DNA of 64,000 nucleotides from an uncultured Pseudomonadota bacterium (GTDB lineage Bacteria; Pseudomonadota; Alphaproteobacteria; RF32; CAG-239), in assembly GCA_902799835.1 (NCBI GenBank), contig CADCCF010000005.1, positions 257,722 to 321,721 of the forward strand. Reading direction: 5' to 3'. A model generated the notes under the pieces. That model saw nothing but the letters and a program-made list of their open reading frames with translations. It did no database searches and was not told the origin of the DNA. The position numbers and the translations under genes were made by a program. Below are positions 35,905 through 38,075 of this stretch, in pieces (the stretch's first letter is position 1; each line of letters begins with the position of its first letter).

Positions 35905-36465
35905 TCACGCTACCAGAAATTGACAATCGATTTCTATGGTGTCGTTGCTGTGGCTTTTGGGTTCTACTTGGGTTTTAGGATTTCTCAATATCCCCGCATT
36001 AATTTCTTTGGATGACAATTGACGCACAATCTCATTTGTGTTTTCTACATTCAATATCGTTTTGAATTCTCTTTCGGTAAAACACATGGCATCTGCCAAA
36101 TAGAAGATTCTGCGTTTTTCCAAGGTGCCGCCCAATTTTGAGTTAATATCAGCCTTTATTCTGCTAGGCGCTATTTCAGCTAGATGTTTCGGCAGTCTGA
36201 CCGATGACTGCAAGAAAACCACATTTCGTTGCGTCAAAGCAAAATCAAGCTGTTCCTGGTATATTTTTTCTGCCAGTTCATGAACATTAAGCGCAAAACT
36301 GTTTTGCCCCAGAGGCTTAAAGAATTGGGTTCTCTGCAACATCCAAACTCTTCTTTTGGTGCGCACAATAATCTGCAGACCTGCTATTCTTTCACCATCT
36401 TTCAATTTGGAAAAACCCCGCATAAAAGAGGTAAGAACATCATAAATTGCTTCTTTTGTTAACAT
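35905..36465 (-). CDS. Unknown protein, paralogue with degenerate alpha-CTD-like region
   Basis: 186 residues. Near residue 29 'GLQIIVRTKRR' parallels 'GWQLIIRKHN' of the neighbouring 36582 protein. Residues ~115-150 ('LEKRRIFYLADAMCFTERE' onward) align without early gaps with the RNA-polymerase-alpha-CTD-like region of that neighbour, sharing L, R, I, D, CF, E, N and N positions, but the helix-hairpin glycine loop (NIGNKR) is replaced by NVENTN. Both end in a short beta segment. There is no Shine-Dalgarno before ATG 36465. It is monocistronic with a terminator on each side. Function is unknown; a DNA- or polymerase-binding role is inferred only from the paralogue. Confidence 0.7.
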   Translation of the reverse strand: MLTKEAIYDVLTSFMRGFSKLKDGERIAGLQIIVRTKRRVWMLQRTQFFKPLGQNSFALNVHELAEKIYQEQLDFALTQRNVVFLQSSVRLPKHLAEIAPSRIKADINSKLGGTLEKRRIFYLADAMCFTEREFKTILNVENTNEIVRQLSSKEINAGILRNPKTQVEPKSHSNDTIEIDCQFLVA

Positions 36466-36535
36466 AATATAAGATTTTTAAATTAATAATTCATAAGTGT
36501 ATCTTTGCTTTTATCTTATTTTGTATAATTTGTCA

Positions 36536-36572
36536 ATAAAAAATCCCTGATACCGCGAAAGGTATCAGGGAT
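36536..36572 (-). terminator. Terminator of the 36582-37220 gene
   Basis: ATCCCTGATACC-GCGAAA-GGTATCAGGGAT, 12-bp stem, with a T run on the minus strand ten bases after the stop. Confidence 0.88.
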
Positions 36573-36581
36573 ATAGTTAAG

Positions 36582-37220
36582 TTAAAGGTTCTTGTCCTTT
36601 ACTACAACTTGCAACTCCAAGACGACAGAACCATTCATCACCTTGCGGGGGCGCTTGAGAGCTTGCCACGCAGTGTGGTAGTGATCTAAAGTCTCATCAA
36701 GAGCATTCAAGCGTTTGTTTCCGATATTGCGCAGATCGGCAATTTCCTCACGGCCGAAACAAACTAGATCACCGATGGTGTGAATATTGCGCTGGCTCAA
36801 GCAATTGATGATGGCGTTGATGTCGTTAGTGCGGCAAGCTTGGTTTGGCGTGAGTTCCAAAGCTTTTTGCAAGCTGGTACCCAAAATAGTCCGACCTTCG
36901 CGGGAGCATTGAGCTACGCCGCAATCAAGATAAACCTTGTCGATACCTTGCGCCTCGAAACGCTGTTGCTCAGTATATGCCTTGATGGCTATGGCTCCGG
37001 AATCAAGCAACACTTCGTGCTTGTCATCGCTGAGTTTATACACCATTTTTTCAAGACCGCAAACATACGCGCTTTTTGATATTGCTGCATCATTGTGCTT
37101 TCGGATAATCAGCTGCCATCCGTAAATGGTTTTGTCTCCAACCTCATCTTTGAGGAATTTGGTAATTTTCTTTTCGCGCAACGCAATAATTTCTTGCGGC
37201 GCCATAAATTTTCTATCCAT
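36582..37220 (-). CDS. Unknown protein with RNA polymerase alpha-CTD-like domain
   Basis: 212 residues. Residues ~134-178 resemble the alpha subunit C-terminal domain: 'INCLSQRNIHTIGDLV' matches the alpha pattern NCL..x..I..IGDLV, and 'LRNIGNKRLNALDETL' matches LK.PNLGKKSL.EI...L. The equivalents of DNA-contacting Asn268, Gly296 and Lys298 of E. coli alpha are kept; Arg265 is not. The first ~110 residues ('TIYGWQLIIRKHND', 'LDSGAIAIKAYTE') are not recognised, and the C-terminus is a beta strand. It is paralogous to the 35905 protein. It has no Shine-Dalgarno, a GC-richer codon choice and its own terminator. It could bind promoter DNA or a transcription factor; this is inference. Confidence 0.72.
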   Translation of the reverse strand: MDRKFMAPQEIIALREKKITKFLKDEVGDKTIYGWQLIIRKHNDAAISKSAYVCGLEKMVYKLSDDKHEVLLDSGAIAIKAYTEQQRFEAQGIDKVYLDCGVAQCSREGRTILGTSLQKALELTPNQACRTNDINAIINCLSQRNIHTIGDLVCFGREEIADLRNIGNKRLNALDETLDHYHTAWQALKRPRKVMNGSVVLELQVVVKDKNL

Positions 37221-37281: not shown

Positions 37282-37316
37282 GCTCTGTCAACAAAAATAT
37301 ATTTTTTTTGTAAATA

Positions 37317-37400: not shown

Positions 37401-37652
37401 ATGCCAAAAAAACTTTCAAAATATGATACAAGATGTACTCCGGCCAGTATTGTTAGAAATTATGCAACAATACGTAAAGATACTCCTGTGTCAAGACAAA
37501 TAACTACTGGCTCAAAACTCGGAGATATGGCTTTATATCAGATACCAAGGATTGGAAAATTGATAAAAGCATATAATCGTATGGATGCAATAGGAACAAA
37601 TGCTTTGCGTTTACAACAAGCTAAAGAAAATAGTTGTCAAAGCAAGAAGTAA
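37401..37652 (+). CDS. Small basic hypothetical protein
   Basis: 83 residues, Lys/Arg-rich, starting 'MPKKLSKYDTRCTPASI', with 'QIPRIGKLIKAYNRMDAIG' as a possible amphipathic helix. It has no signal peptide and no recognised family. The ribosome site AAAGGA is good. Upstream DNA carries two palindromes, one identical in design to the toxin-locus operator, so the gene is probably regulated with that locus. The next gene begins 36 bp downstream with its own GGGGAG site, so the two may form an operon. Confidence 0.6.
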   Translation: MPKKLSKYDTRCTPASIVRNYATIRKDTPVSRQITTGSKLGDMALYQIPRIGKLIKAYNRMDAIGTNALRLQQAKENSCQSKK

Positions 37653-37688
37653 CTGCTTTTAAATAATATAAAAGGGGAGTGTCAACTT

Positions 37689-38075
37689 ATGAAACTGTAT
37701 TCTCAAGAAGCCTTGATATTAGGTGGTATATATGGAGTTTTAGATACTCCCTTTGCTTATATGAAATTTGAATACATAACAGATTTTTTGTTTATTGCAT
37801 TTGTTGTGTTTATTTTTATGTTGTTATTTAATCGTGTACCCAAGTTTGTTTCTTATATACAAAGCAATTATCCCATAGCATCATATTATTTGGCAGCTAT
37901 TGGTTGGGTACCGTACTTTTTAATATTGATTTTTTTTATAATAATCTTGATGTCTTTTGTCAGTGAATATATAGCTGAAAATATTGCCACAATTATGTTT
38001 TCGCTACAAGGAGTTGATTTAATTTTGATGGGTTTGTCTTTATTGGCGGCATTTGGCAGAAAAAAATTGAGATAA
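37689..38075 (+). CDS. Small membrane protein of unknown function
   Basis: 128 residues with three clear hydrophobic segments (~30-48, ~70-92 and ~103-122) and a basic end 'FGRKKLR', suggesting a cytoplasmic C-terminus. The ribosome site is GGGGAG. It follows the 37401 gene and is probably cotranscribed. The order small soluble protein plus membrane protein, under two operators, would suit a regulated stress or effector module, but no function can be claimed. It is convergent with lepA, 9 bp away. Confidence 0.65.
   Translation: MKLYSQEALILGGIYGVLDTPFAYMKFEYITDFLFIAFVVFIFMLLFNRVPKFVSYIQSNYPIASYYLAAIGWVPYFLILIFFIIILMSFVSEYIAENIATIMFSLQGVDLILMGLSLLAAFGRKKLR

Follow-up and report, generated by a model that had tools for sequence, protein, structure and literature searches.

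The C-terminal domain of the RNA polymerase alpha subunit (alpha-CTD) is a main landing pad for bacterial activators, and its appearance in a protein other than RpoA raises the question of what the module does there. The window analyzed here, a 64,000-nucleotide stretch on contig C5 of an uncultured alphaproteobacterial genome (G000; 1.5 Mb, 7 contigs), contains two adjacent genes, A and B (Table 1). A first-pass annotation had assigned A an alpha-CTD-like module outside RpoA and had described B as a degenerate partner; both ORFs were confirmed at the positions it gave. Three relatives harbor the same pair and are designated G026, G007, and G028.

Table 1. Features of the A-B locus (window coordinates)
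Feature	Position	Strand	Basis
Gene A, 212 aa: orphan N-terminal domain, alpha-CTD module, C-terminal strand	36582..37220	-	ORF
Orphan N-terminal alpha/beta domain of A, residues 1-124	36849..37220	-	AF2 secondary structure; profile
Alpha-CTD module of A, about residues 125-185	36666..36848	-	Pfam; Foldseek; hhalign to RpoA CTDs
Final (C-terminal) beta strand of A, residues 199-208, following the alpha-CTD module	36597..36626	-	AF2 model; counterpart in B
Gene B, 186 aa, full-length paralogue of A	35905..36465	-	ORF; hhalign A vs B; shuffles
Putative alpha-CTD-like module of B, degenerate and lacking the NIGxK hairpin, about residues 104-160	35986..36156	-	AF2 model of orthologue; weak sequence support
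Intrinsic-terminator-like hairpin after A, between A and B; perfect 12-bp stem and T tail	36543..36572	-	Scan
Putative promoter-like TTGACA site for B, weak -10	36508..36536	-	Sequence comparison
Putative -35-like TTGACA upstream of A	37287..37292	-	Comparison of upstream regions

It is close to certain that A carries a genuine alpha-CTD domain, as the first-pass annotation had proposed. Residues 138-178 match PF03118 (RNA_pol_A_CTD) with 34.1 bits (E=2.3e-8; curated cut-off 23.8 bits), and the scores of the orthologues in G007 (23.5 bits) and G026 (18.4 bits) place the A family near this cut-off. Searching with a profile built from A retrieves solved RpoA chains (best E=7e-6), and profile-profile alignment with the RpoA CTDs of relatives gives E=2e-9 over 52 columns. 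The comparison with the genome's own RpoA, whose true gene lies on contig C3, yields Z=8.0 with none of 1000 shuffles as good; together with the Pfam score, the shuffles exclude chance similarity. A is nevertheless no RpoA, which comprises an alpha-NTD and an alpha-CTD over about 330 residues: A lacks the alpha-NTD, aligns with RpoA across the CTD only, and reaches 31.5 against a cut-off of 227.8 in the rpoA equivalog model. The AF2 model of A (mean pLDDT 80.5, pTM 0.76, from nine aligned sequences) retrieves almost only RNA polymerase alpha chains from the PDB, and isolated alpha-CTDs are matched with a Foldseek probability of 1.00, a TM-score to the target of up to 0.84, and an E-value of about 3e-3; no PDB E-value passes 0.001 for A or B, the matched module being a quarter to a third of the protein. 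Thus, neither a different fold nor a missing alpha-CTD match, the two outcomes that would have spoken against the assignment, appeared in structure prediction or profile search.

The accompanying claim that alpha-CTDs are rare outside RpoA did not hold. In the same bacterial family, small proteins of G095, G138, G146, G151, and G043 exceed the PF03118 cut-off outside RpoA, and many phage proteins among the viral predicted structures of BFVD are named for this domain; an account of standalone alpha-CTD proteins was not found in the open-access papers searched. The proteins of G095 (139 aa), G146 (140 aa), and G138 (232 aa, beside rplQ-rpoA) have other N-terminal parts and keep the equivalents of Arg265, Gly296, and Lys298, a full set that A lacks. 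Phage proteins annotated as "RNA polymerase, alpha subunit, C-terminal" (A0A6J5MNY7, A0A2P1JY10) are likewise small non-RpoA proteins with an alpha-CTD fold, but only this part aligns convincingly with A, and no counterpart of the N-terminal domain was recognized in them. With the alpha-CTD of RpoA itself, A shares the fold, the core motif NI..IGDL, and the Gly-x-Lys hairpin, whereas it differs in lacking an alpha-NTD and in having an unrelated N-terminal domain and a trailing beta strand. What sets the locus apart is therefore its orphan N-terminal domain, its two paralogues side by side, and the disappearance of DNA-contact residues, and the pair overall is a real but modest oddity. Two proteins of the family stood out in these searches. 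The 232-aa protein of G138 (L061 1321-2019) scores 62.7 bits for the alpha-CTD, keeps Arg265, and is encoded directly after rplQ beside rpoA, and a 1150-aa protein of G148, from another genus (L060 340-3792), contains the PF03118 alpha-CTD three times and falls slightly short of the cut-off for sigma-70 region 4.

B is a paralogue of A over nearly its whole length. The annotation had aligned the two proteins over about 32 residues; the nine identities in about 30 residues, including the CF pair, were recovered, but the similarity is not confined to that stretch. Local alignment joins residues 21-168 of A with 17-142 of B (Z=6.0, 0/1000 shuffles), and profile-profile alignment covers 147 columns (E=2.4e-5), the match within the G007 pair alone being weak (Z=2.0). 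The models share the order helix, strands, helix, strand, helical module, and final strand. Across the four genomes, A copies are closer to A copies and B copies to B copies than A is to B, indicating that the duplication is older than the split of the four species. The B module has lost the NIGNKR loop, as had been noted, and thus has no NIGxK hairpin. In the AF2 model of the G007 orthologue (pLDDT 79.8, pTM 0.77), whose alignment contained A sequences so that it is not fully independent of A, alpha-CTD structures top the PDB list (probability up to 1.00, TM up to 0.80), and the B module likely has the alpha-CTD fold at the level of fold. Sequence comparisons are fainter: neither B nor its orthologues match PF03118, and B reaches only E=0.64 against the Caulobacter alpha-CTD, E=0.015 with a probability of 3% in hhalign against the alpha-CTD, and Z of about 2.3 in shuffles. 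Its match to the SAM model PF22993 (E=5e-5) is below that model's cut-off, yet better than that to the alpha-CTD.

Arg265 is crucial for the contact between alpha-CTD and UP element (PMC2988021). Alignment of the window copy of A with its own RpoA places Ala136 at Arg265, Asn139 at Asn268, Gly167 at Gly296, and Lys169 at Lys298, in agreement with the residues that the annotation had listed as kept and lost, with Arg170 at the position of Ser299 and Ala173 at that of Glu302. Comparison of the four copies shows that Asn268 is not conserved within the A family: it is kept in G000 alone and replaced by Lys, Lys, and Gln in the others, while the Arg265 position is Ala in G000 and G026 and Ile in G007 and G028. 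The one constant element across all four is the Gly-x-Lys hairpin. A thus does not possess the Arg265 and other minor-groove residues by which UP-element binding is recognized, and the A and B modules both lack the full DNA-contact set. Because Arg265 is missing from all four copies and Asn268 from three, classic UP-element binding by A appears unlikely, which weakens the suggestion of a free alpha-CTD acting on such elements.

The N-terminal domain of A is predicted by AF2 to fold as helix 8-27, strands 32-42 and 49-57, helix 74-90, and strand 96-105. Its profile matches the four clade genomes only, with no further occurrence in 153 genomes of the order or in a class sample of 385, and none of the structures listed, solved or viral, matches its fold. 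In addition, Cys100 and Cys105 (C-x4-C) are invariant across the A copies and absent from B, and may constitute a metal or redox site.

Protein searches of 94 relatives recovered A and B in 4 of the 35 genomes of the genus. The relatives with the pair include metagenome-assembled genomes labelled uncultured proteobacterium isolate RUG10873 and RUG10672 and uncultured Alphaproteobacteria bacterium, where RUG stands for rumen uncultured genomes. The LepA ends of the four are 98-100% identical, compared with at or below 95% for other members of the genus, indicating that the pair-bearing genomes form one clade. In all of them the two genes are kept together in constant order between a gene for an outer-membrane protein (OMP) and lepA; in the window, the OMP gene lies on one side and two small ORFs and lepA on the other. 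In the six other members of the genus that were inspected, a MATE-like gene (named by eye) comes after this OMP gene in place of the pair, so that the OMP-lepA junction is derived in the pair clade. No homologue of the pair was detected in viral contigs, plasmids, or phages. A gave three "plasmid" matches, one of which was opened and proved to be an ordinary rpoA; a second carries the annotation RNA polymerase alpha. The opened record, NZ_OY725917.1, is labelled a Bacteroides plasmid, holds a ribosomal-protein/rpoA operon, and is probably a mislabelled chromosomal piece. A Bacteroidota origin of the pair is unsupported.

Both genes are maintained under purifying selection, as indicated by low dN/dS values for A (0.13, G000-G026; a rough value, since dS of 1.63 is near saturation) and for B (0.15, G000-G026; 0.18, G007-G028). 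Divergence along the locus is mosaic. When G000 is compared with G026, DNA identity is 93-100% across B and the region beyond A, whereas it drops to 55-70% in the core of A (about 36660-37080). The synonymous divergence (pS) of A is 0.15 in the first 25 codons and up to 0.93 in the middle, and amino-acid identity falls to a minimum of 33% at codons 161-187, inside the alpha-CTD module. The dS of B is 0.11, compared with 0.75 for lepA. The far greater divergence of the A core than of B points to allele exchange, and the simplest reading is that the region was recently exchanged between species with a divergent A core retained or swapped in. Positive selection in A is unsupported; the synonymous sites of the core diverge too, which fits allele replacement better. 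The sub-clades are deeply diverged, with about 30% amino-acid identity for the pair against 98% for LepA. The A gene of G028 is split across two contigs, and its hand-joined sequence was used for profile searching only.

A and B are probably separate transcription units, as suggested by the hairpin and T run and by promoter-like sites of their own. A hairpin with a T run occupies the equivalent place in G026, G007, and G028, where it is followed by TTGACAAATT, with TATAAT in G007 and G028; the consensus scan did not list the TTGACA site of B. All four genomes have TTGACAGA in common upstream of A. An A-B operon was dropped as a candidate arrangement, given a terminator-like hairpin between the genes in 4/4 genomes.

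Our preferred reading, held tentatively and at less than even confidence, is that A and B are accessory regulators docking through an exapted alpha-CTD. They would be clade-specific accessory proteins from an old tandem duplication, in which a novel N-terminal alpha/beta domain probably serves for assembly and, as a guess, might join A to a second A or to B, and an exapted alpha-CTD fold is carried near the C-terminus of each. Since the A module has retained its core and its Gly-x-Lys hairpin but lost the minor-groove residues, we infer that it would most likely dock on the DNA backbone or on a protein partner in the transcription machinery rather than read UP elements; the B module, its hairpin lost, could serve protein contacts only. 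Together, the two may act as small transcription regulators whose target differs between strains. Strict co-expression is disfavored by the separate signals for promoter and terminator, and the exchange of B between G000 and G026 alongside a still divergent A core does not suggest tight coevolution. A strain-variable heteromer is a more speculative and rather improbable elaboration, in which the assembly domain would present two modules of alpha-CTD fold, of which one bears a DNA-docking hairpin and the other lacks it, as a detachable, swappable alpha-CTD that recruits or blocks RNA polymerase or an activator. A resident pair that carries the alpha-CTD fold on a new domain, stripped of DNA-reading residues and with exchanged alleles, would show how the module can be put to use outside the polymerase, and if the pair does contact the transcription machinery, it would reveal, as an experiment of nature, which surfaces an alpha-CTD can do without.

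The same module could be a helix-hairpin-helix/SAM-like scaffold recruited for a job outside transcription, such as binding mobile or damaged DNA or oligomerization. The constancy of the Gly-x-Lys hairpin alone, a feature common to helix-hairpin-helix proteins, the better score of the B module against the SAM model, and the position of the pair beside the lepA 3' end, which accepts small insertions, all favor such a role; however, A matches the alpha-CTD far better than any helix-hairpin-helix or SAM model, and the match extends to the residues that follow the hairpin and, in G007, to the LGM end. We regard this explanation as slightly less likely than the preferred reading. Less probable is a fast-evolving conflict module, either a counter-measure against phages or mobile elements or a toxin-antitoxin-like system. 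Patchy occurrence, the divergence of the pair between sub-clades relative to LepA, mosaic allele replacement, and the insertion-prone neighborhood are compatible with conflict, but both genes are retained at one locus in four species like resident genes, with low dN/dS, no integrase or phage gene was recognized beside them, and matches in the defence library and PHROGs are only weak. In the PADLOC models the best value among nine members is 0.0083, with PglW at 0.016; a link to BREX PglW, weak and for A running through the alpha-CTD stretch only, was dropped. A last reading, which takes up the annotation's idea of titration, makes A a mimic of the alpha-CTD that would titrate activators or compete with RpoA, with B tuning it. 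The module is recognizably an alpha-CTD and matches its own RpoA, yet a mimic would need the contact surfaces. In the alignment, no copy retains Arg265, the window copy has other residues at Ser299 and Glu302, and the similarity of A to RpoA is limited to the core. The stretch of A that varies most lies in the module, which is odd for a surface facing a constant partner, and we consider mimicry improbable.

The 3' end of lepA in G026 looks as if it were an insertion site. Its last ~70 bases are repeated (L019 4442-4511, 5783-5852, and 6479-6548; 94% and 60% identity), the repeats surround small inserted blocks with ORFs of 80 aa, 86 aa, 140 aa (cupin-like), and 190 aa, and no integrase was seen near them. 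Pairs encoding a small basic protein and a short membrane protein occur in the window (37401-38075, without a Pfam match) and in G026 (L019 3758-4429 and 4655-5239), where the leaders preceding the two pairs are 96% identical.
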